Assembly: GCF_947623445.1 (NCBI RefSeq)
Contig: NC_135240.1
Span: 26,040,001-26,104,000, forward strand
Direction: 5' to 3'
DNA: 64,000 bases
Source of the DNA: Clavelina lepadiformis
Lineage: Eukaryota > Chordata > Ascidiacea > Aplousobranchia > Clavelinidae
Shown: one piece after another, positions 4,386 through 18,180 of the stretch
Numbering within the stretch: the stretch's first letter is position 1
How the letters are laid out: each line of letters begins with the position of its first letter
The notes under the pieces: model-generated
Database searches by the model: none
What the model was told of the DNA's origin: nothing
What the model saw: the letters and a program-made list of their open reading frames with translations, nothing else
Translations under genes and position numbers: made by a program

Positions 4386-5449
4386 AGCAAAAGGTTGTGA
4401 AATTTAAGTACCACTTTCGTAAGTTATTCTCTTGCTTTATTAATTACATTTCAATGTGAGCGATTTTAGAAGTTCTTTTTTTTATTTCTGAATTTATTAT
4501 TATATAAGACTATATATGATGAACTTATTAACATACGTTTTGCAATACATTTTCTGTGCTTGTTTGAAATTGTGATTCGCTTTCCTGCTTTTGGGATTAT
4601 ATTTTACAGTAATTAGCAATAATCTATTGAGGGATCAGACGGATTCTTTTGAAATTTAAGTCAACGCCGCGCTCGGGTGATTTTAAGTTAAGTGTGAACC
4701 AGGGCTTTGGAGCAGGCGTAAATGTTAAATTGCTCCAGCTCCAGCTCCGGAGCTCTCTTTTATCGTAAATTAGCTCCAGCTCCAACGATCATAACCGCTT
4801 GTATATTTTTTCTTCAATTCTAAAGTGGTGCACCTCAAATGCAAGCAAATGGAAAACCTTGGAAGCAATTTTGGCAATTTTTGGTTCTAAATAACAAAGT
4901 GGCAGAATATGGGCAGAGGAATTCTCAAAGCGGATGTTTTCTAATCTGTTTCTATTTTTTTCCACTTGTGTTAACTTGTATTATTATTTAATCGGTTGTG
5001 TCTTATGCTTTGTCAGCATTTCCCAATTTTTCTCTCCAATTCTACTAGATCTTCTTCCGATATTTCATTCCTACATATCACACCGTTCATATAGTGGTTA
5101 CGCTACCATATACATTTTAACAGAAAATTACCGTTCGTCGCTGGCTCTCGATCTAATTCTCTATTTTGAGAACATCTCGTCGCTTGCTCATGGGGTGGAT
5201 CACTGTCACTGAAATGTACAACTGAATAGAATTTGTATTGTATAGAATAGGATTGCTTCGTTTTGTACTTACATTTTTAATTTACACCGTTTTATTCCGG
5301 GGAATACAGACTCGGCTCAATGGTGATCGTTCGTCGAATGATTCGTATAAGTACAGTACACTGATGAATTGGTTACGTTTTGGTAGGCTCAAATTTAGCT
5401 TGAGGGGTCACTTCCCAATAAAACGACAATTTTTAGCCGGCAACACAGT
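4386..5449. other. Intergenic, no gene seen
   Basis: AT-rich. A 92-codon frame at 4934-5212 is rich in F, L, Y and S, has no recognisable domain and is read as non-coding. The left part holds a hAT-like terminus near 4700. A segment at 5385-5424 resembles the inverse of 5836-5860 inside the first macrosatellite unit. Confidence 0.5.
4700..4800. mobile_element. hAT-like transposon end, fragment
   Basis: CAGGGCTTTGGAGC at 4700 has the CAGGG start common to hAT termini and is followed by a GCTCCAGCTCC-rich subterminal stretch. The matching opposite terminus was not found, so the extent is a guess. Confidence 0.35.
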
Positions 5450-5500
5450 GATTGTGACCGTGTCGCACTCAATGCGTCATATTAAAAAAAGTAAAAACTT

Positions 5501-5530
5501 TCCGGTCCAATGCGCATGTGACGTCGATGT
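5501..5530 (+). promoter_or_regulatory. Promoter-like block of the macrosatellite unit
   Basis: CCAAT (5507-5511), TGCGCATG (NRF1-like, 5511-5518) and TGACGTC (CRE-like, 5519-5525) lie within 20 bp. They sit about 630 bp before the nuclease ATG. A good splice acceptor (AATCTACACAG, ending 6151) lies 7 bp before that ATG, so a spliced 5' UTR is likely. The block recurs in units 2 and 3 and is the only part kept in the partial unit 4. Promoter activity is inferred. Confidence 0.4.
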
Positions 5531-6158
5531 GGAGTAGTTCGTCGTTGCTTTGACGACAGCTGGTTCCAGGTCTAGGCTAAGTTGTAAATTTTGTGTGGGT
5601 TTGAATTTTTGGTTTTTTGGAGTATTTGTCATAAAATTTTAAGCTAAAAACTTGTTGTAAAGTTTAGGCAATTGTTATCGAAAACTGAGTACACGGATTT
5701 TGTCCAAATTAAGACTGTAGACAGACATAACCTAGGTCTCGTTGCAAGCCAAAATTCAGGGTAGGTTTATGATGTAGTTTTGCGTTGGTAGCTTCTTGAT
5801 TTAATGTACTTTGCATTGAAAAGCCTATCTCTTTGAATTGGGACATGACCCCTTAAGCAAAAATTTATTATGAATGTAGACTTCAGTTTTTAAGCTTTCT
5901 CAACTTGCTAGTTTGTCTTTGGGCTAGGCTATTAACTAGAAGTTAATGGCAAATTTTCCAGAAATAGTTTTGGCTGGCTTTTCTGTATTTAACAGCGTTT
6001 AATTCTTTGTTTATTTATTTTATTTGCAAAACTGGTAGGACAGTTATTGTTTGCGTGCTATAATGAAGTGTACGTAATTTTCTGACAGAATGGATGCGTT
6101 TTAAAGTTAATACAAATGTAAAGCAATAATATTTTATTAAAATCTACACAGACAAACG

Positions 6159-6506
6159 ATGGAAAAGCTAATAAAAAATTTAACAAAAGACATGGTTCGG
6201 CTGGGTCCTAACGATTCTTGTGTTTGCTGGATTGGCGCAATAACGGGTAACGGATACGGTAGCATCAACTTTGACGGCCAGCGGCTAGGTGCTCATAGGC
6301 TGGCATATATGTTGTTGGTACAAAAATCAATTTTACCGCTTGCAAGCGAGTTGCAAGTAAGTCATGCGTGTCATTGCCGGGTTTGCGTAAATCCAGTTCA
6401 CTTAAGTTTAGAACCAGCCGACGTGAACAATGCAAGAAAACGATGCAACCACCATCAATATTGTTTTGGTCATGGTGCTTTTAAGAACTGCCTTTTCTGG
6501 CCTTGA
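6159..6506 (+). CDS. I-PpoI-like His-Cys box homing endonuclease, copy 1
   Basis: 115 residues from ATG to TGA. The C-terminal half shows the full His-Cys box: active-site His69 in VSHACH, zinc ligands Cys71, Cys76 and His81 (NPVHL), metal-binding Asn90, then Cys96, Cys102, His105 and Cys111. The spacings H-2-C-5-C-5-H-9-N-6-C-6-C-3-H-6-C nearly equal those of Physarum I-PpoI (2-5-5-9-6-7-2-4). The N-terminal half has CWIGAITGNGYGSI and AHRLAY, typical of the zinc-binding-loop homing endonuclease family. Such enzymes cut long DNA sites and are best known from mobile group I introns in protist rDNA. No group I intron or rRNA sequence is seen here. All key residues are present, so the enzyme is probably active; its target is unknown. 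A strong splice donor (CAA|GTAAGT) lies inside the box at 6357. Confidence 0.9.
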   Translation: MEKLIKNLTKDMVRLGPNDSCVCWIGAITGNGYGSINFDGQRLGAHRLAYMLLVQKSILPLASELQVSHACHCRVCVNPVHLSLEPADVNNARKRCNHHQYCFGHGAFKNCLFWP

Positions 6507-6542
6507 GCATTAGGTAGTACAATAGTTCTTTGGGTTATTTTT

Positions 6543-6912
6543 TTAAGTTTCTACAACTGTTCCGTCTAATTCATGCTGTTTAAACCGCATTCCTTTGCAG
6601 AATTTCCGTCTTCGACGAGCCACTGGAGTATTTCTTTTCAGTTCAAGTTGCATATCAGACGCTTGCAACGCCGCCATCCGTTTTGTTGCTGGGGACCCTT
6701 TTTGTAGAGGAATGCCCGAAACATCGCAAGCCATGGCAACTCCGCTACTAAAACCATTGTTTCGGCATAAAACTGCAAGATGCAATCGACCAGGTATTGT
6801 GTTTTCAAAATGTCTGCCTTTCGGCAACGTTTTCGAAAATGTAGCGTTTACACTTTCGCACTTGTTTTTGTTTCTACCTAAACGGATTTTACCCAAAACG
6901 CTTAGCGCTTAG
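6543..6912. other. Conserved region open on both strands, copy 1
   Basis: A frame on the minus strand (6543-6896, about 117 codons, rich in Lys and Arg) overlaps one on the plus strand (6595-6912, about 105 codons, rich in Phe and Leu). Neither opens with ATG and neither resembles a known domain. The plus frame is preceded at 6600 by a strong splice acceptor (TTCCTTTGCAG), so it could be a 3' exon of the nuclease transcript. The minus frame looks more like a DNA-binding protein by composition. Three identical copies give no substitution data to decide between them. Confidence 0.35.
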
Positions 6913-7422
6913 GTTAACAGTAAGTCGAACTAAAGGAAATAACAGAAGTTTACTTTAGTACTTAAAATTTAGTTGAAACTAGCTTATAGTTAACTAGGAA
7001 GCTCTAGTTTAACAAGGAACTGAACAAAATGGCAGCAAACGTTAACATCTTACCCATTACATAGTGGCAAATTTCTGCAATCGTTCAGTCGTGTTAAATA
7101 CGTGAACGTGTTTAGTGCTACATGTAAAAATAGCCAAGACAGAATAGGAAACAATGTTTATCAAAAACGCTTGATTTTAACGGTTGACTGACATTCCTAT
7201 TAGTGATAATAACTTACCGTTAGGTTGAGTGATTCAACAAAATGGTTCGCTCATGTTAACCGCCACAAAAGCTTGTGACGCGCGAACGGTTCAATTCACC
7301 GTGGAGACGTAGGCGTAGCTAGGTCACGAAATCAGCTTGATTCTCATCTAGACTACGCTAGCTAGATTTTCATCTAGACTACGCTGGCTTGATTTTCATC
7401 TAGACTACGCTAGCTTGATTTT

Positions 7423-7504
7423 CATCTAGTGGCCGAGTGGTTAAGGCGACAGACTTGAAATCTGTTGGGCTCTGCCCGCGTAGGTTCGAATCCTGCCGAC
7501 AACG
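7423..7504 (+). pseudogene. tRNA-Ser(UGA) pseudogene, unit 1 position 1
   Basis: The body from 7430 is a complete tRNA-Ser (D arm, ACAGA/TCTGT anticodon stem, anticodon TGA, long variable arm, T arm). The first seven bases are CATCTAG from the neighbouring 28-bp repeat and cannot pair with CGACAAC, so the acceptor stem is lost. Confidence 0.8.
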
Positions 7505-7580
7505 CGGAATTGAAATTATGTTTTCATAAGAGCTTCGAGAAAAGTGCGATTTTATTTATTTGCATTGAACATTAAGCACA

Positions 7581-7662
7581 ATTGTCGTGGCCGAGTGGTT
7601 AAGGCGACAGACTTGAAATCTGTTGGGATCTGCCCGCGTAGGTTCGAATCCTGGCGACAACG
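7581..7662 (+). tRNA. tRNA-Ser(UGA), unit 1 position 2, slightly degraded
   Basis: 82 nt with discriminator G. Base 1 is A instead of G (mismatch with C72) and the T stem has CCTGG for CCTGC. A box and B box (GGTTCGAATCC) are intact. Functionality is doubtful. Confidence 0.7.
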
Positions 7663-7738
7663 CAGAATTGAAATTATGTTTTCATAAGAGATTCGAGAAA
7701 AGTGCGATTTTATTTATTTGCATTGAACATTAAGCACA

Positions 7739-7820
7739 GTTGTCGTGGCCGAGTGGTTAAGGCGACAGACTTGAAATCTGTTGGGATCTGCCCGCGTAGG
7801 TTCGAATCATGCCGACAACG
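7739..7820 (+). tRNA. tRNA-Ser(UGA), unit 1 position 3
   Basis: The acceptor stem GTTGTCG/CGACAAC pairs fully, and the anticodon loop is CTTGAAA (anticodon TGA). The T stem reads CATGC instead of CCTGC, one mismatch that also alters the B box end. The gene may be weak. Confidence 0.75.
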
Positions 7821-7896
7821 CAGAAATGAAATTATGTTTTCATAAGAGATTCGAGAAAAGTGCTATTTTATTTATTTGCATTGAACATTAAGCACA

Positions 7897-7978
7897 GTTG
7901 TCGTGGCCGAGTGGTTAAGGCGACAGACTTGAAATCTGTTGGGCTCTGCCCGCGTAGGTTCGAATCCTGCCGACAACG
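7897..7978 (+). tRNA. tRNA-Ser(UGA), unit 1 position 4, intact
   Basis: 82 nt, all stems pair (acceptor GTTGTCG/CGACAAC, anticodon ACAGA/TCTGT, T stem GTAGG/CCTGC). Anticodon TGA reads UCA. A box TGGCCGAGTGG and B box GGTTCGAATCC match the consensus. Confidence 0.93.
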
Positions 7979-8031
7979 GTGATATTAAATTTGCAAATTC
8001 ACAAGTATATTGAGAAAAGTGCCACTTCAAA

Positions 8032-9156
8032 GAGTACTAGAGTACTAGAGTACTAGAGTACTAGAGTACTAGAGTACTAGAGTACTAGAGTACTAGAGTA
8101 CTAGAGTACTAGAGTACTAGAGTACTAGAGTACTAGAGTACTAGAGTACTAGAGTACTAGAGTACTAGAGTACTAGAGTACTAGAGTACTAGAGTACTAG
8201 AGTACTAGAGTACTAGAGTACTAGAGTACTAGAGTACTAGAGTACTAGAGTACTAGAGTACTAGAGTACTAGAGTACTAGAGTACTAGAGTACTAGAGTA
8301 CTAGAGTACTAGAGTACTAGAGTACTAGAGTACTAGAGTACTAGAGTACTAGAGTACTAGAGTACTAGAGTACTAGAGTACTAGAGTACTAGAGTACTAG
8401 AGTACTAGAGTACTAGAGTACTAGAGTACTAGAGTACTAGAGTACTAGAGTACTAGAGTACTAGAGTACTAGAGTACTAGAGTACTAGAGTACTAGAGTA
8501 CTAGAGTACTAGAGTACTAGAGTACTAGAGTACTAGAGTACTAGAGTACTAGAGTACTAGAGTACTAGAGTACTAGAGTACTAGAGTACTAGAGTACTAG
8601 AGTACTAGAGTACTAGAGTACTAGAGTACTAGAGTACTAGAGTACTAGAGTACTAGAGTACTAGAGTACTAGAGTACTAGAGTACTAGAGTACTAGAGTA
8701 CTAGAGTACTAGAGTACTAGAGTACTAGAGTACTAGAGTACTAGAGTACTAGAGTACTAGAGTACTAGAGTACTAGAGTACTAGAGTACTAGAGTACTAG
8801 AGTACTAGAGTACTAGAGTACTAGAGTACTAGAGTACTAGAGTACTAGAGTACTAGAGTACTAGAGTACTAGAGTACTAGAGTACTAGAGTACTAGAGTA
8901 CTAGAGTACTAGAGTACTAGAGTACTAGAGTACTAGAGTACTAGAGTACTAGAGTACTAGAGTACTAGAGTACTAGAGTACTAGAGTACTAGAGTACTAG
9001 AGTACTAGAGTACTAGAGTACTAGAGTACTAGAGTACTAGAGTACTAGAGTACTAGAGTACTAGAGTACTAGAGTACTAGAGTACTAGAGTACTAGAGTA
9101 CTAGAGTACTAGAGTACTAGAGTACTAGAGTACTAGAGTACTAGAGTACTAGAGTA
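8032..9156. repeat. 8-bp satellite (AGTACTAG)n, array 1
   Basis: About 140 uninterrupted copies, 1.1 kb, with no variation seen by eye. The unit is the 6-bp palindrome AGTACT plus AG. It runs directly into the start of macrosatellite unit 2. Confidence 0.98.
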
Positions 9157-9873
9157 GATTGTGACCGTGTCGCACTCAATGCGTCATATTAAAAAAAGTA
9201 AAAACTTTCCGGTCCAATGCGCATGTGACGTCGATGTGGAGATGTGGAGTAGTTCGTCGTTGCTTTGACGACAGCTGGTTCCAGGTCTAGGCTAAGTTGT
9301 AAATTTTGTGTGGGTTTGAATTTTTGGTTTTTTGGAGTATTTGTCATAAAATTTTAAGCTAAAAACTTGTTGTAAAGTTTAGGCAATTGTTATCGAAAAC
9401 TGAGTACACGGATTTTGTCCAAATTAAGACTGTAGACAGACATAACCTAGGTCTCGTTGCAAGCCAAAATTCAGGGTAGGTTTATGATGTAGTTTTGCGT
9501 TGGTAGCTTCTTGATTTAATGTACTTTGCATTGAAAAGCCTATCTCTTTGAATTGGGACATGACCCCTTAAGCAAAAATTTATTATGAATGTAGACTTCA
9601 GTTTTTAAGCTTTCTCAACTTGCTAGTTTGTCTTTGGGCTAGGCTATTAACTAGAAGTTAATGGCAAATTTTCCAGAAATAGTTTTGGCTGGCTTTTCTG
9701 TATTTAACAGCGTTTAATTCTTTGTTTATTTATTTTATTTGCAAAACTGGTAGGACAGTTATTGTTTGCGTGCTATAATGAAGTGTACGTAATTTTCTGA
9801 CAGAATGGATGCGTTTTAAAGTTAATACAAATGTAAAGCAATAATATTTTATTAAAATCTACACAGACAAACG

Positions 9874-10221
9874 ATGGAAAAGCTAATAAAAAATTTAACA
9901 AAAGACATGGTTCGGCTGGGTCCTAACGATTCTTGTGTTTGCTGGATTGGCGCAATAACGGGTAACGGATACGGTAGCATCAACTTTGACGGCCAGCGGC
10001 TAGGTGCTCATAGGCTGGCATATATGTTGTTGGTACAAAAATCAATTTTACCGCTTGCAAGCGAGTTGCAAGTAAGTCATGCGTGTCATTGCCGGGTTTG
10101 CGTAAATCCAGTTCACTTAAGTTTAGAACCAGCCGACGTGAACAATGCAAGAAAACGATGCAACCACCATCAATATTGTTTTGGTCATGGTGCTTTTAAG
10201 AACTGCCTTTTCTGGCCTTGA
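9874..10221 (+). CDS. I-PpoI-like His-Cys box homing endonuclease, copy 2
   Basis: Encodes the same 115-residue protein as 6159-6506, with every catalytic and zinc-binding residue. The upstream acceptor and internal donor sites are also the same. See copy 1 for motif positions. Confidence 0.9.
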   Translation: MEKLIKNLTKDMVRLGPNDSCVCWIGAITGNGYGSINFDGQRLGAHRLAYMLLVQKSILPLASELQVSHACHCRVCVNPVHLSLEPADVNNARKRCNHHQYCFGHGAFKNCLFWP

Positions 10222-10257
10222 GCATTAGGTAGTACAATAGTTCTTTGGGTTATTTTT

Positions 10258-10627
10258 TTAAGTTTCTACAACTGTTCCGTCTAATTCATGCTGTTTAAAC
10301 CGCATTCCTTTGCAGAATTTCCGTCTTCGACGAGCCACTGGAGTATTTCTTTTCAGTTCAAGTTGCATATCAGACGCTTGCAACGCCGCCATCCGTTTTG
10401 TTGCTGGGGACCCTTTTTGTAGAGGAATGCCCGAAACATCGCAAGCCATGGCAACTCCGCTACTAAAACCATTGTTTCGGCATAAAACTGCAAGATGCAA
10501 TCGACCAGGTATTGTGTTTTCAAAATGTCTGCCTTTCGGCAACGTTTTCGAAAATGTAGCGTTTACACTTTCGCACTTGTTTTTGTTTCTACCTAAACGG
10601 ATTTTACCCAAAACGCTTAGCGCTTAG
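10258..10627. other. Conserved region open on both strands, copy 2
   Basis: Same frames as 6543-6912, with no change seen. Coding status is undecided. Confidence 0.35.
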
Positions 10628-11137
10628 GTTAACAGTAAGTCGAACTAAAGGAAATAACAGAAGTTTACTTTAGTACTTAAAATTTAGTTGAAACTAGCTT
10701 ATAGTTAACTAGGAAGCTCTAGTTTAACAAGGAACTGAACAAAATGGCAGCAAACGTTAACATCTTACCCATTACATAGTGGCAAATTTCTGCAATCGTT
10801 CAGTCGTGTTAAATACGTGAACGTGTTTAGTGCTACATGTAAAAATAGCCAAGACAGAATAGGAAACAATGTTTATCAAAAACGCTTGATTTTAACGGTT
10901 GACTGACATTCCTATTAGTGATAATAACTTACCGTTAGGTTGAGTGATTCAACAAAATGGTTCGCTCATGTTAACCGCCACAAAAGCTTGTGACGCGCGA
11001 ACGGTTCAATTCACCGTGGAGACGTAGGCGTAGCTAGGTCACGAAATCAGCTTGATTCTCATCTAGACTACGCTAGCTAGATTTTCATCTAGACTACGCT
11101 GGCTTGATTTTCATCTAGACTACGCTAGCTTGATTTT

Positions 11138-11219
11138 CATCTAGTGGCCGAGTGGTTAAGGCGACAGACTTGAAATCTGTTGGGCTCTGCCCGCGTAGGT
11201 TCGAATCCTGCCGACAACG
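11138..11219 (+). pseudogene. tRNA-Ser(UGA) pseudogene, unit 2 position 1
   Basis: Same broken 5' acceptor strand (CATCTAG) as in unit 1; the tRNA body starts at 11145. Confidence 0.8.
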
Positions 11220-11295
11220 CGGAATTGAAATTATGTTTTCATAAGAGCTTCGAGAAAAGTGCGATTTTATTTATTTGCATTGAACATTAAGCACA

Positions 11296-11377
11296 ATTGT
11301 CGTGGCCGAGTGGTTAAGGCGACAGACTTGAAATCTGTTGGGATCTGCCCGCGTAGGTTCGAATCCTGGCGACAACG
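11296..11377 (+). tRNA. tRNA-Ser(UGA), unit 2 position 2, slightly degraded
   Basis: Same two defects as unit 1 position 2: A at base 1 and CCTGG in the T stem. Confidence 0.7.
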
Positions 11378-11453
11378 CAGAATTGAAATTATGTTTTCAT
11401 AAGAGATTCGAGAAAAGTGCGATTTTATTTATTTGCATTGAACATTAAGCACA

Positions 11454-11535
11454 GTTGTCGTGGCCGAGTGGTTAAGGCGACAGACTTGAAATCTGTTGGG
11501 ATCTGCCCGCGTAGGTTCGAATCATGCCGACAACG
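11454..11535 (+). tRNA. tRNA-Ser(UGA), unit 2 position 3
   Basis: Full acceptor stem; one T-stem mismatch (CATGC), as in unit 1. Confidence 0.75.
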
Positions 11536-11611
11536 CAGAAATGAAATTATGTTTTCATAAGAGATTCGAGAAAAGTGCTATTTTATTTATTTGCATTGAA
11601 CATTAAGCACA

Positions 11612-11693
11612 GTTGTCGTGGCCGAGTGGTTAAGGCGACAGACTTGAAATCTGTTGGGCTCTGCCCGCGTAGGTTCGAATCCTGCCGACAACG
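11612..11693 (+). tRNA. tRNA-Ser(UGA), unit 2 position 4, intact
   Basis: All stems pair and anticodon TGA; no difference from 7897-7978 was seen. Confidence 0.93.
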
Positions 11694-11746
11694 GTGATAT
11701 TAAATTTGCAAATTCACAAGTATATTGAGAAAAGTGCCACTTCAAA

Positions 11747-14607
11747 GAGTACTAGAGTACTAGAGTACTAGAGTACTAGAGTACTAGAGTACTAGAGTAC
11801 TAGAGTACTAGAGTACTAGAGTACTAGAGTACTAGAGTACTAGAGTACTAGAGTACTAGAGTACTAGAGTACTAGAGTACTAGAGTACTAGAGTACTAGA
11901 GTACTAGAGTACTAGAGTACTAGAGTACTAGAGTACTAGAGTACTAGAGTACTAGAGTACTAGAGTACTAGAGTACTAGAGTACTAGAGTACTAGAGTAC
12001 TAGAGTACTAGAGTACTAGAGTACTAGAGTACTAGAGTACTAGAGTACTAGAGTACTAGAGTACTAGAGTACTAGAGTACTAGAGTACTAGAGTACTAGA
12101 GTACTAGAGTACTAGAGTACTAGAGTACTAGAGTACTAGAGTACTAGAGTACTAGAGTACTAGAGTACTAGAGTACTAGAGTACTAGAGTACTAGAGTAC
12201 TAGAGTACTAGAGTACTAGAGTACTAGAGTACTAGAGTACTAGAGTACTAGAGTACTAGAGTACTAGAGTACTAGAGTACTAGAGTACTAGAGTACTAGA
12301 GTACTAGAGTACTAGAGTACTAGAGTACTAGAGTACTAGAGTACTAGAGTACTAGAGTACTAGAGTACTAGAGTACTAGAGTACTAGAGTACTAGAGTAC
12401 TAGAGTACTAGAGTACTAGAGTACTAGAGTACTAGAGTACTAGAGTACTAGAGTACTAGAGTACTAGAGTACTAGAGTACTAGAGTACTAGAGTACTAGA
12501 GTACTAGAGTACTAGAGTACTAGAGTACTAGAGTACTAGAGTACTAGAGTACTAGAGTACTAGAGTACTAGAGTACTAGAGTACTAGAGTACTAGAGTAC
12601 TAGAGTACTAGAGTACTAGAGTACTAGAGTACTAGAGTACTAGAGTACTAGAGTACTAGAGTACTAGAGTACTAGAGTACTAGAGTACTAGAGTACTAGA
12701 GTACTAGAGTACTAGAGTACTAGAGTACTAGAGTACTAGAGTACTAGAGTACTAGAGTACTAGAGTACTAGAGTACTAGAGTACTAGAGTACTAGAGTAC
12801 TAGAGTACTAGAGTACTAGAGTACTAGAGTACTAGAGTACTAGAGTACTAGAGTACTAGAGTACTAGAGTACTAGAGTACTAGAGTACTAGAGTACTAGA
12901 GTACTAGAGTACTAGAGTACTAGAGTACTAGAGTACTAGAGTACTAGAGTACTAGAGTACTAGAGTACTAGAGTACTAGAGTACTAGAGTACTAGAGTAC
13001 TAGAGTACTAGAGTACTAGAGTACTAGAGTACTAGAGTACTAGAGTACTAGAGTACTAGAGTACTAGAGTACTAGAGTACTAGAGTACTAGAGTACTAGA
13101 GTACTAGAGTACTAGAGTACTAGAGTACTAGAGTACTAGAGTACTAGAGTACTAGAGTACTAGAGTACTAGAGTACTAGAGTACTAGAGTACTAGAGTAC
13201 TAGAGTACTAGAGTACTAGAGTACTAGAGTACTAGAGTACTAGAGTACTAGAGTACTAGAGTACTAGAGTACTAGAGTACTAGAGTACTAGAGTACTAGA
13301 GTACTAGAGTACTAGAGTACTAGAGTACTAGAGTACTAGAGTACTAGAGTACTAGAGTACTAGAGTACTAGAGTACTAGAGTACTAGAGTACTAGAGTAC
13401 TAGAGTACTAGAGTACTAGAGTACTAGAGTACTAGAGTACTAGAGTACTAGAGTACTAGAGTACTAGAGTACTAGAGTACTAGAGTACTAGAGTACTAGA
13501 GTACTAGAGTACTAGAGTACTAGAGTACTAGAGTACTAGAGTACTAGAGTACTAGAGTACTAGAGTACTAGAGTACTAGAGTACTAGAGTACTAGAGTAC
13601 TAGAGTACTAGAGTACTAGAGTACTAGAGTACTAGAGTACTAGAGTACTAGAGTACTAGAGTACTAGAGTACTAGAGTACTAGAGTACTAGAGTACTAGA
13701 GTACTAGAGTACTAGAGTACTAGAGTACTAGAGTACTAGAGTACTAGAGTACTAGAGTACTAGAGTACTAGAGTACTAGAGTACTAGAGTACTAGAGTAC
13801 TAGAGTACTAGAGTACTAGAGTACTAGAGTACTAGAGTACTAGAGTACTAGAGTACTAGAGTACTAGAGTACTAGAGTACTAGAGTACTAGAGTACTAGA
13901 GTACTAGAGTACTAGAGTACTAGAGTACTAGAGTACTAGAGTACTAGAGTACTAGAGTACTAGAGTACTAGAGTACTAGAGTACTAGAGTACTAGAGTAC
14001 TAGAGTACTAGAGTACTAGAGTACTAGAGTACTAGAGTACTAGAGTACTAGAGTACTAGAGTACTAGAGTACTAGAGTACTAGAGTACTAGAGTACTAGA
14101 GTACTAGAGTACTAGAGTACTAGAGTACTAGAGTACTAGAGTACTAGAGTACTAGAGTACTAGAGTACTAGAGTACTAGAGTACTAGAGTACTAGAGTAC
14201 TAGAGTACTAGAGTACTAGAGTACTAGAGTACTAGAGTACTAGAGTACTAGAGTACTAGAGTACTAGAGTACTAGAGTACTAGAGTACTAGAGTACTAGA
14301 GTACTAGAGTACTAGAGTACTAGAGTACTAGAGTACTAGAGTACTAGAGTACTAGAGTACTAGAGTACTAGAGTACTAGAGTACTAGAGTACTAGAGTAC
14401 TAGAGTACTAGAGTACTAGAGTACTAGAGTACTAGAGTACTAGAGTACTAGAGTACTAGAGTACTAGAGTACTAGAGTACTAGAGTACTAGAGTACTAGA
14501 GTACTAGAGTACTAGAGTACTAGAGTACTAGAGTACTAGAGTACTAGAGTACTAGAGTACTAGAGTACTAGAGTACTAGAGTACTAGAGTACTAGAGTAC
14601 TAGAGTA
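11747..14607. repeat. 8-bp satellite (AGTACTAG)n, array 2
   Basis: About 357 copies, 2.86 kb, uninterrupted. True length could differ if the assembly collapsed or padded it. It exits into unit 3 through the same AGAGTAGATTGTGACC junction as array 1. Confidence 0.98.
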
Positions 14608-15316
14608 GATTGTGACCGTGTCGCACTCAATGCGTCATATTAAAAAAAGTAAAAACTTTCCGGTCCAATGCGCATGTGACGTCGATGTGGAGTAGTTCGT
14701 CGTTGCTTTGACGACAGCTGGTTCCAGGTCTAGGCTAAGTTGTAAATTTTGTGTGGGTTTGAATTTTTGGTTTTTTGGAGTATTTGTCATAAAATTTTAA
14801 GCTAAAAACTTGTTGTAAAGTTTAGGCAATTGTTATCGAAAACTGAGTACACGGATTTTGTCCAAATTAAGACTGTAGACAGACATAACCTAGGTCTCGT
14901 TGCAAGCCAAAATTCAGGGTAGGTTTATGATGTAGTTTTGCGTTGGTAGCTTCTTGATTTAATGTACTTTGCATTGAAAAGCCTATCTCTTTGAATTGGG
15001 ACATGACCCCTTAAGCAAAAATTTATTATGAATGTAGACTTCAGTTTTTAAGCTTTCTCAACTTGCTAGTTTGTCTTTGGGCTAGGCTATTAACTAGAAG
15101 TTAATGGCAAATTTTCCAGAAATAGTTTTGGCTGGCTTTTCTGTATTTAACAGCGTTTAATTCTTTGTTTATTTATTTTATTTGCAAAACTGGTAGGACA
15201 GTTATTGTTTGCGTGCTATAATGAAGTGTACGTAATTTTCTGACAGAATGGATGCGTTTTAAAGTTAATACAAATGTAAAGCAATAATATTTTATTAAAA
15301 TCTACACAGACAAACG

Positions 15317-15664
15317 ATGGAAAAGCTAATAAAAAATTTAACAAAAGACATGGTTCGGCTGGGTCCTAACGATTCTTGTGTTTGCTGGATTGGCGCAATA
15401 ACGGGTAACGGATACGGTAGCATCAACTTTGACGGCCAGCGGCTAGGTGCTCATAGGCTGGCATATATGTTGTTGGTACAAAAATCAATTTTACCGCTTG
15501 CAAGCGAGTTGCAAGTAAGTCATGCGTGTCATTGCCGGGTTTGCGTAAATCCAGTTCACTTAAGTTTAGAACCAGCCGACGTGAACAATGCAAGAAAACG
15601 ATGCAACCACCATCAATATTGTTTTGGTCATGGTGCTTTTAAGAACTGCCTTTTCTGGCCTTGA
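15317..15664 (+). CDS. I-PpoI-like His-Cys box homing endonuclease, copy 3
   Basis: Third copy of the 115-residue nuclease with an identical protein. All His-Cys box residues are present. See 6159-6506 for the assignment. Confidence 0.9.
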   Translation: MEKLIKNLTKDMVRLGPNDSCVCWIGAITGNGYGSINFDGQRLGAHRLAYMLLVQKSILPLASELQVSHACHCRVCVNPVHLSLEPADVNNARKRCNHHQYCFGHGAFKNCLFWP

Positions 15665-15700
15665 GCATTAGGTAGTACAATAGTTCTTTGGGTTATTTTT

Positions 15701-16070
15701 TTAAGTTTCTACAACTGTTCCGTCTAATTCATGCTGTTTAAACCGCATTCCTTTGCAGAATTTCCGTCTTCGACGAGCCACTGGAGTATTTCTTTTCAGT
15801 TCAAGTTGCATATCAGACGCTTGCAACGCCGCCATCCGTTTTGTTGCTGGGGACCCTTTTTGTAGAGGAATGCCCGAAACATCGCAAGCCATGGCAACTC
15901 CGCTACTAAAACCATTGTTTCGGCATAAAACTGCAAGATGCAATCGACCAGGTATTGTGTTTTCAAAATGTCTGCCTTTCGGCAACGTTTTCGAAAATGT
16001 AGCGTTTACACTTTCGCACTTGTTTTTGTTTCTACCTAAACGGATTTTACCCAAAACGCTTAGCGCTTAG
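15701..16070. other. Conserved region open on both strands, copy 3
   Basis: Same frames as in units 1 and 2; coding status undecided. Confidence 0.35.
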
Positions 16071-16580
16071 GTTAACAGTAAGTCGAACTAAAGGAAATAA
16101 CAGAAGTTTACTTTAGTACTTAAAATTTAGTTGAAACTAGCTTATAGTTAACTAGGAAGCTCTAGTTTAACAAGGAACTGAACAAAATGGCAGCAAACGT
16201 TAACATCTTACCCATTACATAGTGGCAAATTTCTGCAATCGTTCAGTCGTGTTAAATACGTGAACGTGTTTAGTGCTACATGTAAAAATAGCCAAGACAG
16301 AATAGGAAACAATGTTTATCAAAAACGCTTGATTTTAACGGTTGACTGACATTCCTATTAGTGATAATAACTTACCGTTAGGTTGAGTGATTCAACAAAA
16401 TGGTTCGCTCATGTTAACCGCCACAAAAGCTTGTGACGCGCGAACGGTTCAATTCACCGTGGAGACGTAGGCGTAGCTAGGTCACGAAATCAGCTTGATT
16501 CTCATCTAGACTACGCTAGCTAGATTTTCATCTAGACTACGCTGGCTTGATTTTCATCTAGACTACGCTAGCTTGATTTT

Positions 16581-16662
16581 CATCTAGTGGCCGAGTGGTT
16601 AAGGCGACAGACTTGAAATCTGTTGGGCTCTGCCCGCGTAGGTTCGAATCCTGCCGACAACG
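16581..16662 (+). pseudogene. tRNA-Ser(UGA) pseudogene, unit 3 position 1
   Basis: 5' acceptor strand replaced by CATCTAG, as in the other units. Confidence 0.8.
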
Positions 16663-16738
16663 CGGAATTGAAATTATGTTTTCATAAGAGCTTCGAGAAA
16701 AGTGCGATTTTATTTATTTGCATTGAACATTAAGCACA

Positions 16739-16820
16739 ATTGTCGTGGCCGAGTGGTTAAGGCGACAGACTTGAAATCTGTTGGGATCTGCCCGCGTAGG
16801 TTCGAATCCTGCCGACAACG
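16739..16820 (+). tRNA. tRNA-Ser(UGA), unit 3 position 2
   Basis: Base 1 is A, but the T stem is the intact CCTGC, unlike the copies in units 1 and 2. Confidence 0.78.
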
Positions 16821-16896
16821 CAGAATTGAAATTATGTTTTCATAAGAGATTCGAGAAAAGTGCGATTTTATTTATTTGCATTGAACATTAAGCACA

Positions 16897-16978
16897 GTTG
16901 TCGTGGCCGAGTGGTTAAGGCAACAGACTTGAAATCTGTTGGGATCTGCCCGCGTAGGTTCGAATCATGCCGACAACG
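16897..16978 (+). tRNA. tRNA-Ser(UGA), unit 3 position 3
   Basis: Acceptor and anticodon stems pair. It has GGCAACAG where the others have GGCGACAG (base between D and anticodon stems), plus the CATGC T-stem mismatch. Confidence 0.72.
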
Positions 16979-17054
16979 CAGAAATGAAATTATGTTTTCA
17001 TAAGAGATTCGAGAAAAGTGCTATTTTATTTATTTGCATTGAACATTAAGCACA

Positions 17055-17136
17055 GTTGTCGTGGCCGAGTGGTTAAGGCGACAGACTTGAAATCTGTTGG
17101 GCTCTGCCCGCGTAGGTTCGAATCCTGCCGACAACG
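17055..17136 (+). tRNA. tRNA-Ser(UGA), unit 3 position 4, intact
   Basis: All stems pair and the internal A and B boxes are consensus. Its flank matches the position-3 repeats, so it belongs to the extra 158-bp repeat of this unit. Confidence 0.93.
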
Positions 17137-17212
17137 CAGAAATGAAATTATGTTTTCATAAGAGATTCGAGAAAAGTGCTATTTTATTTATTTGCATTGA
17201 ACATTAAGCACA

Positions 17213-17294
17213 GTTGTCGTGGCCGAGTGGTTAAGGCGACAGACTTGAAATCTGTTGGGCTCTGCCCGCGTAGGTTCGAATCCTGCCGACAACG
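17213..17294 (+). tRNA. tRNA-Ser(UGA), unit 3 position 5, intact
   Basis: All stems pair; anticodon TGA. It corresponds to the last tRNA of units 1 and 2, with the same 3' flank (GGTGATATTAAATTTGC). Confidence 0.93.
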
Positions 17295-17345
17295 GTGATA
17301 TTAAATTTGCAAATTCACAAGTATATTGAGAAAAGTGCCACTTCA

Positions 17346-17443
17346 ATGATTTCCTTTATACATAGATCATTAAGCATAGTTTTCATGGCCTAGCGGTAAT
17401 GTTAATGTTAATGGGTAATGTTAATGGGTAATGTTGTAATTCT
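17346..17443 (+). pseudogene. Decayed sixth tRNA-Ser repeat
   Basis: CATTAAGCATAGTTTTCATGGCCTAGCGG-like sequence aligns with the flank and 5' half of the tRNA repeats (CATTAAGCACAGTTGTCGTGG), then dissolves into a short GGTAATGTTAAT repeat. It is missing from units 1 and 2, where the satellite starts at the equivalent place. Confidence 0.6.
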
Positions 17444-18017
17444 AGAGTACTAGAGTACTAGGGTACCAGGGTACCAGGGTACCAGGGTACCAGGGTACCA
17501 GGGTACCAGGGTACCAGGGTACCAGGGTACCAGGGTACCAGGGTACCAGGGTACCAGGGTACCAGGGTACCAGGGTACCAGGGTACCAGGGTACCAGGGT
17601 ACCAGGGTACCAGGGTACCAGGGTACCAGGGTACCAGGGTACCAGGGTACCAGGGTACCAGGGTACCAGGGTACCAGGGTACCAGGGTACCAGGGTACCA
17701 GGGTACCAGGGTACCAGGGTACCAGGGTACCAGGGTACCAGGGTACCAGGGTACCAGGGTACCAGGGTACCAGGGTACCAGGGTACCAGGGTACCAGGGT
17801 ACCAGGGTACCAGGGTACCAGGGTACCAGGGTACCAGGGTACCAGGGTACCAGGGTACCAGGGTACCAGGGTACCAGGGTACCAGGGTACCAGGGTACCA
17901 GGGTACCAGGGTACCAGGGTACCAGGGTACCAGGGTACCAGGGTACCAGGGTACCAGGGTACCAGGGTACCAGGGTACCAGGGTACCAGGGTACCAGGGT
18001 ACCAGGGTACCAGAGTA
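17444..18017. repeat. 8-bp satellite (GGTACCAG)n, array 3
   Basis: Two AGTACTAG-type copies at the left edge, then about 69 copies of GGTACCAG, then the same AGAGTAGATTGTG exit as the other arrays. The variant differs from AGTACTAG at the first and sixth bases by complementary changes, so the palindrome around GTAC is preserved. Confidence 0.97.
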
Positions 18018-18180
18018 GATTGTGACCGTGTCGCACTTATTGCGTCATATTAAAAAAAGTAAAAACTTTCCGGTCCAATGCGCATGGACGTCGATGTGGA
18101 GTAGTTCGTCGTTGCTTTGACGACAGCTGGTTCCAGGTCTAGGCTAAGTTGTAAATTTTGTGTGGGTTTCAATTTTTGGT
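18018..18180 (+). repeat. Partial macrosatellite unit 4
   Basis: About 163 bp matching the start of units 1-3 (through GTGTGGGTTT), with a few changes (CTTATTGCG for CTCAATGCG, one base lost in GCGCATGGACG). It then breaks off into unique sequence and marks the right end of the array. Confidence 0.9.

Follow-up and report, generated by a model that had tools for sequence, protein, structure and literature searches.

Sequence features place a tripled homing-type nuclease gene of Clavelina lepadiformis in a probable KolobokP derivative fused to a serine-tRNA macrosatellite

Introduction

What is an intact homing endonuclease gene doing in a tandem array on a chordate chromosome, and does the enzyme build the array in which it sits? 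The question is raised by a stretch of the genome of the ascidian Clavelina lepadiformis, 64,000 nucleotides of contig NC_135240.1 (C1:26040001-26104000; hereafter the window), in which three near-identical units spanning positions 5404-17294 each contain an intact gene for a 115-residue nuclease of the I-PpoI type with a His-Cys box. A first-pass annotation had suggested that these units may form a selfish element that is built on its own target and amplified by its own nuclease. We find instead that the block is very probably a recently tripled and rearranged derivative of the DNA transposon KolobokP fused to a tRNA macrosatellite, with the same long terminal direct repeat (LTDR) bounding a family of elements that carry tRNA cargo; the architecture, the family features, the truncation, the fusion and the near-identity of the units are the directly observed parts of this explanation. 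KolobokP is a lineage described by Kojima and Bao in 2022, for which the main text lists Branchiostoma (lancelets) as the sole host in Chordata (PMC9587614).

Sequence features place the window nuclease in KolobokP

The open reading frames (ORFs) of the nuclease at 6159..6506, 9874..10221 and 15317..15664, all on the forward strand, are identical, as had been claimed, and the nine His-Cys box residues listed by the first-pass annotation (H69, C71, C76, H81, N90, C96, C102, H105 and C111) all stand in those places on the translation. The protein matches Pfam PF05551 (E 8.8e-11), and its best sequence match in the PDB is I-PpoI (E 0.0019), where H69, C71, C76, H81, N90 and C96 were aligned opposite H98, C100, C105, H110, N119 and C125; the alignment ends at residue 97, before C102, H105 and C111. 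Judged from its sequence, the nuclease has the predicted catalytic histidine and asparagine and the zinc ligands that define a His-Cys box. It resembles I-PpoI and the group I intron endonucleases in this pattern as well as in the sequence match, and it differs from I-PpoI in being encoded by a DNA transposon and in its length of 115 rather than 163 residues. An origin from a group I intron was rejected, since the 13 Rfam matches at the gathering threshold in the window are all tRNA and the gene sits in a transposon. For a viral origin, one tblastn scan of IMG/VR with the nuclease, which did not extend to phage, plasmid or prokaryote collections, found no relative.

On the strand opposite to the nuclease, a transposase is encoded in the window and in related copies on contigs C4 and C1. 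The window keeps the tail of this gene only, and fuller copies are present on C4 and elsewhere on C1. In a trimer at C4:6.08 Mb, both transposase exons are open and match PF20700 (Mutator-like transposase; E 2e-18 and 2.5e-16), a family that we infer covers Kolobok, and CCVH was found by inspection between TTDND and CESVNAT. The C1 dimer also has a transposase convergent with its nuclease (53% and 62% identical by tblastn). The nuclease gene makes up one of the two halves of a DNA transposon, the other being the transposase, of which the window has a truncated form, and the idea of a self-contained unit is not supported.

The main text of PMC9587614 describes KolobokP by LTDRs of ~450 or 660 bp that have their own short terminal inverted repeats (TIRs; 5'-RR..YY-3') and by a 4-bp target site duplication (TSD) of the TTAA type. 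The LTDRs found here are 449 bp long in subfamily A, which includes the window, and ~450 bp in subfamily B, with G-rich, imperfect TIRs of their own (GGGGTCACTTCCCAAT/ATTGGGACATGACCCC and GGGGCTGTAG/CTACAGACCC), and these blocks occur at the ends of elements and between units. TTAA flanks both outer sides of an array on C6 and of the C1 dimer, while TTCA flanks both outer sides of a multimer on C7. A tRNA-Ser gene is interrupted at GGTTAA by one LTDR, which has a 1.3-kb insertion and is flanked on each side by TTAA (stretch L030), and the right end of a truncated B copy sits at a TTAA within a 5S rRNA gene (L024). The latter stretch (C4:14802300-14812299) contains 5S rDNA arrays with a 229-bp period that flank the truncated copy in opposite orientations.

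Because the transposase, the opposite-strand nuclease, the ~450-bp LTDR, the TTAA-type TSD and the multimers fit the published description, we place the window nuclease, by these features, in a composite-like DNA transposon of the KolobokP lineage, as its accessory gene. PiggyBac had been suspected as the source of the TTAA repeats and was dropped, as the transposase is of PF20700 with Kolobok-type ends. As far as the main text of PMC9587614 goes, the likeness extends to the LTDR-INT-LTDR plan (INT being the interior), a DDE transposase encoded opposite to an I-PpoI-like nuclease, the occurrence of multimers, joints that have no LTDR, and solo LTDRs; the plan, the multimers and the LTDR-less joints are seen in the relatives, and the window array is a truncated form of them. 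Compared with the same text, what differs here is the tunicate host, the multimers of at least 84 units, the tRNA-Ser cargo, element ends that lie within 5S and tRNA genes, and a window copy in which the nuclease has been left next to a truncated transposase and joined to a tRNA macrosatellite. That main text nowhere contains the terms tRNA, tunicate, ascidian, satellite or 5S rRNA, and a literature search found the name KolobokP in no further paper.

Several observations weigh against the placement. A transposase piece in stretch L018 was unmatched by PF20700, and that in L013 fell below the cut-off. In the C4 trimer, too, no TSD closing the array was read. The window array departs from a canonical (LTDR-INT)n-LTDR multimer, as units 2 and 3 are without the left TIR and no right-hand LTDR closes the array; its sole outer flank is TTGA, and its TSD is unreadable because the right LTDR is absent.

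The window units combine a reduced element with a serine-tRNA macrosatellite

The array is real, as first annotated, although the element starts at 5404, at its TIR, and not at 5450. Unit 1 opens with a complete subfamily A LTDR of 449 bp on the forward strand (5404..5852), which runs from GGGGTCACTTCCCAAT to ATTGGGACATGACCCC, is followed by TTAA at 5853-5856 and has copies 97-98% identical elsewhere in the genome; for the window LTDR as a whole, the copies are 97-100% identical among the best 40 of 562 candidates. The LTDRs of unit 2 (9157..9567) and unit 3 (14608..15010), also on the forward strand, are without their first 46 bp, which contain the left TIR, and that of unit 2 abuts the 8-bp satellite. 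What is left of the Kolobok-type transposase lies downstream of each nuclease gene on the reverse strand and comprises its C-terminal 129 codons, which are interrupted by a single in-frame stop and share 86% identity with the copy on C4 (6513..6899 in unit 1, with the same remnant at 10228..10614 and 15671..16057).

The remainder of each unit, on the forward strand, is of another origin. It begins with a leader segment (6905..7330, 10620..11045 and 16063..16488) of a serine-tRNA macrosatellite that is found elsewhere without the nuclease, followed by 3.7 copies of a 26-bp repeat (7334..7429, 11049-11144 and 16492-16587) and by tandem tRNA-Ser(UGA) genes with a 158-bp period. One of these genes is truncated at its 5' end in every unit, and it is accompanied by three complete genes in unit 1 (7429..7978) and unit 2 (11144..11693) and by four in unit 3 (16587..17294). 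Unstranded satellite blocks then follow, (AGAGTACT)n with 141 copies 3' of unit 1 (8031..9156) and 358 copies 3' of unit 2 (11746..14607), and (GTACCAGG)n with 71 copies 3' of unit 3 (17447..18017). The tRNA genes and 8-bp satellite that had been noted are both present, with the refinement that the tRNAs are tRNA-Ser(UGA) and that the satellite of unit 3 differs from the other two.

In an alignment over 5450-7978, two substitutions and an 8-bp duplication in unit 2 are the only differences among the units, and this near-identity indicates that the amplification is recent, as was first proposed. The joints between units run from the (AGAGTACT)n satellite to an LTDR without its first 46 bp and not from repeat to repeat, which argues that the tripling did not arise by LTDR-LTDR exchange. 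Leader, 26-bp repeats, tRNA-Ser genes and 8-bp satellite also occur together without nuclease or LTDR in stretches on C8 and C6 (L033 and L034), and an altered form of the tRNA-Ser segment does so on C3 (L031 and L032), from which we conclude that the segment is a separate macrosatellite. Both the joints and this independent existence tell against a self-contained selfish array based on its own target. Genome-wide, a 35-nt tRNA-Ser core pattern (≤2 mismatches) gave 1,196 matches, and its reversed control gave 0.

The 8-bp satellites beside tRNA-Ser clusters comprise AGAGTACT, its one-base variant CTAGAGTG, GTACCAGG and TAGTTAGC, so that the unit sequence shifts and the period is constant; they were seen in the three window blocks and at L033 1-1593, L034 799-1715 and L036 1872-1987. 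In L029 (C1:25872000-25880500), tRNA-Ser arrays are broken by ~1-kb segments, which by eye end in sequence resembling a tRNA-Leu that runs on into the 3' portion of a tRNA-Ser gene.

Related copies are spread over eight contigs and many are broken

We searched the genome (95 contigs, 209.06 Mb) with PF05551, obtaining 40 matches, and with the nuclease protein, for which 150 of 285 candidates were scored; unit counts are lower bounds because the protein search scores only the best candidates. Relatives at differing divergence were found on contigs C1-C8, which bears out the chordate nuclear location read from the window. Subfamily A consists of the window and the C4 trimer, with three units each and nucleases 82% identical. 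In subfamily B, the dimer at C1:2.95 Mb has an intact nuclease 63% identical to that of the window, with TTAA on both sides of the dimer, a single copy at C1:6.28 Mb has an open frame with an altered N-terminus, and seven C1 copies have a 92-codon open frame with a frameshifted start. The stop-bearing B arrays reach at least 84 units on C5, 21 on C6, 19 on C2 and 7 on C4, with one TAG and one TAA in each listed unit, and the B-array periods of 1657, 2110 and 2563 bp correspond to interiors with 0, 1 and 2 LTDRs.

Five further arrays with periods of ~2.45-2.49 kb have at least 25 (C1:27.7 Mb), 12 (C2:17.9 Mb), 8 (C4:22.2 Mb), 6 (C8:2.3 Mb) and 4 units (C1:3.99 Mb), with the place of the nuclease filled. 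Twelve stretches were sampled, one from each of these five arrays and seven from other places. The nuclease was recognisable in 11 of the 12 and broken by stops or frameshifts in all 11; the twelfth, L057, gave no nuclease match.

Between C1:2.4 and 4.0 Mb (L009-L016, L026 and L027), B copies lie inside large, near-identical and partly inverted duplications. L026 and L027 also contain ORFs that read as C2H2 zinc fingers, plus a (AAATATAAAT)n satellite.

The nuclease shows a sign of past selection in the window lineage

Between the window and C4 nucleases there are 20 synonymous and 23 nonsynonymous changes (nonsynonymous-to-synonymous rate ratio, dN/dS, 0.27; P 0.0002), and the window branch has 9 and 7 (P 0.0025), where the branch counts omit 8 further ambiguous sites. 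Since synonymous changes are in excess in both comparisons, there is a sign in the sequences that the nuclease was useful to the window lineage in the past, though not uniformly across branches. The sign is not clear on the C4 branch, with 7 synonymous and 12 nonsynonymous changes (P 0.09), or between the B nuclease genes at C1:2.95 Mb and C1:6.28 Mb, with 4 and 11 (dN/dS 0.71, P 0.38). Another B pair has 0 and 1 changes, and neither B pair showed a sign of constraint. The window transposase tail, with 10 synonymous and 20 nonsynonymous changes (P 0.13), gave no significant result.

A lone open gene for a 120-residue His-Cys box protein lies at L017 4712-5071 (C4:17571211-17571570; PF05551, E 9.5e-11). 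It is 40% identical to the window nuclease, has no KolobokP transposase match in its 10-kb stretch, and has ORFs ~2 kb away that by eye resemble a monoamine-oxidase-type gene; it is possibly a stranded or domesticated copy.

LTDRs bound a family of elements with serine-tRNA interiors

Outside the window, TTAAGCAAATAACAGAAG comes after many of the LTDRs, and next come the window-type leader, the 26-bp repeats and tandem tRNA-Ser genes. A pattern for this LTDR-to-cargo junction (≤3 mismatches) gave 91 genome matches in 14 groups, with 0 for the reversed control. The groups are located on C2 (2.05-2.11 Mb, 29 junctions; 2.675, 1; 2.685, 1; 22.42, 4; 24.63, 5), C3 (21.5, 1), C6 (1.71, 1; 18.37, 1), C7 (17.38, 1; 19.02-19.04, 10) and C8 (1.66-1.69 Mb, 19; 3.06-3.08, 6; 15.98-16.01, 11; 17.76, 1).

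One junction stretch was sampled from each of 13 groups, all except C2:2.685. ARAGORN found tRNA-Ser genes in all 13, with 2 to 11 in each and the anticodons UGA, CGA, AGA and GGA, and Rfam gave 63 tRNA matches of 37.7-64.6 bits in these 13 stretches, two of which are not tRNA-Ser by position. Neither nuclease nor transposase was matched in any of 14 cargo stretches (the 13 samples and the right edge of the C7 array). The right ends of the cargo interior are alike in 8 loci, and the C7 cargo multimer, ~25 kb long, is the one with TTCA on both outer sides. Given the junctions, the tRNA-Ser interiors, the lack of nuclease and transposase matches and the alike right ends, these loci appear from their sequence to belong to a nonautonomous KolobokP with a serine-tRNA interior, present either singly or as (LTDR-INT)n multimers. 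One point against this is that both outer flanks were read for a single tRNA-cargo group, the one on C7.

Does the nuclease drive the growth of the arrays?

Groups with a whole open nuclease gene are small, with 3 (window), 3 (C4), 2 (C1:2.95 Mb) and 1 (C1:6.28 Mb) units, and the large arrays have a broken gene or, in the sampled stretches, none. Drive in cis is hence unlikely to be the main force, and the first-pass idea that the nuclease amplifies its own array fares poorly against broken-gene arrays of at least 84 units. Supply of the nuclease in trans is possible, and the window nuclease is now probably just carried along by ordinary unequal exchange.

In the trans case, a few intact copies would supply the enzyme by which multimers grow, including those with a dead nuclease or none, an explanation that we consider possible while holding it short of probable. 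In its favour, the intact window copy has the A-type LTDR in common with the tRNA-cargo copies, the intact dimer on C1 has the B-type LTDR in common with the dead arrays, and two LTDR blocks are kept between A and B, CCGGTCCA..GCGCATGTGAC and TACTTTGCATTG. Two LTDRs that abut on C4, a reading from coordinates only, would form a near-palindrome with a TTAA centre; the LTDR-LTDR junction on C6 was unusable because its second LTDR is partly inverted. However, no cut site of the nuclease was found, the conserved blocks are equally likely to be transposase sites and so are a lead only, and long identical arrays can undergo unequal exchange without a nuclease.

Equally tentative is the case of a pure passenger, in which the nuclease has no part in growth and copy number changes through ordinary unequal exchange and segmental duplication. 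The large arrays with a broken nuclease fit it, as do tRNA macrosatellites that are also tandem although their sampled stretches (L031 and L032) are free of KolobokP sequence, but it leaves unexplained the synonymous excess in the nuclease, both in the comparison of the window with C4 and along the window branch, the other comparisons not being significant.

A different doubt concerns the cargo, as the tRNA-Ser clusters could be a tRNA-derived repeat in their own right and not captured functional host genes. Mixed anticodons that differ at the wobble base occur within one cluster (L036, L037, L038, L040, L044, L048 and others), as they would among copies drifting in a repeat, and the 1,196 core matches are, in our judgement, far above the apparent need of the genome; the junctions account for ~343 tRNA genes per 90 junctions, an extrapolation from one stretch in each of 13 groups and not a count. 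Yet the same clusters stand without an LTDR in five stretches (L029 and L031-L034), and the cargo genes score 37.7-64.6 bits against the tRNA model, which leaves this explanation improbable.

Less probable still is a cis-acting selfish array, in which the nuclease would cut its own unit and repair would raise copy number and homogenise the units. The gene is intact in all three near-identical window units, the window branch has its sign of past purifying selection, and the main text of PMC9587614 holds an 'induced unequal crossover' model, untested there, by which the KolobokP nuclease raises copy number. These points are outweighed by the confinement of whole open genes to groups of three units at most, when stop-bearing arrays have at least 84, 21, 19 and 7, the five further arrays of at least 4 to 25 units are broken in the single unit sampled from each, and tRNA-cargo arrays of 4-29 junctions have no nuclease in the sampled stretches; the window joints, between satellite and shortened LTDR, also tell against it. 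Finally, contamination or an assembly artefact can be set aside almost entirely. Long near-identical repeats are hard to assemble and unit counts may be off, but relatives at differing divergence occur on C1-C8, with insertions in 5S and tRNA genes and target duplications on both sides at four places, and the assembly is described in PMC10884593 as 117-fold HiFi with a quality value of 67.4.

Discussion

For the tripled KolobokP derivative that we favour, we propose that a subfamily A copy with a 449-bp LTDR, a nuclease and an opposite-strand transposase would have lost most of its transposase, become fused to the serine-tRNA/8-bp-satellite macrosatellite and been tripled through tandem duplication, with the joint inside the 8-bp satellite. 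In the living family, a double-strand break made by the nuclease at or in the terminal repeat may provoke recombination and so give multimers, in line with the published model. On the simplest account, LTDRs that are separately mobile may insert at TTAA-like sites within tRNA macrosatellites, after which a pair of them could mobilise the intervening segment as tRNA cargo taken from the host.

The sequences at the junction bear on this capture route. The cargo reads CCCC-TTAAGCAAATAACAG, the LTDR-free macrosatellites read CTGAAGGAAATAACAG or CTAAAGTAAATAACAG, and the window reads CTAAAGGAAATAACAG, a comparison that fits an LTDR landing in a TTAA-like macrosatellite site. Against this route, the cargo has CTTAAGC or CTTAAGA where LTDR-free macrosatellites read CTGAAGG, CTAAAGG or CTAAAGT, and a shared interior start, GCAAA (microhomology), makes the breakpoint ambiguous. 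The window itself is a separate fusion of KolobokP and tRNA macrosatellite, as the leader is complete there.

The nuclease as such is explained by the published lineage, and the tRNA cargo is the part that a specialist would not expect. By analogy, the cargo family resembles bacterial composite transposons, in which insertion sequences (IS) flank the cargo, in having separately mobile end modules around cargo genes; it would differ in being eukaryotic, in having gene-free LTDRs as ends and in carrying tRNA clusters. In a literature search that did not take in Repbase or subscription journals, no eukaryotic DNA transposon of composite-like build with tRNA clusters turned up. We regard it as evenly balanced whether KolobokP is here a true eukaryotic composite transposon that captured host serine-tRNA clusters, moved them between chromosomes and multiplied them, helping to set tRNA copy number and anticodon make-up.

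These findings place KolobokP, with its transposase and homing-type nuclease, in a tunicate. Multimers with an intact nuclease, a dead one or none stand side by side in a single genome assembled to chromosome level, which makes induced unequal crossover testable, and the tRNA cargo, if true, would be a concrete route for the explosive growth of a tRNA gene family.

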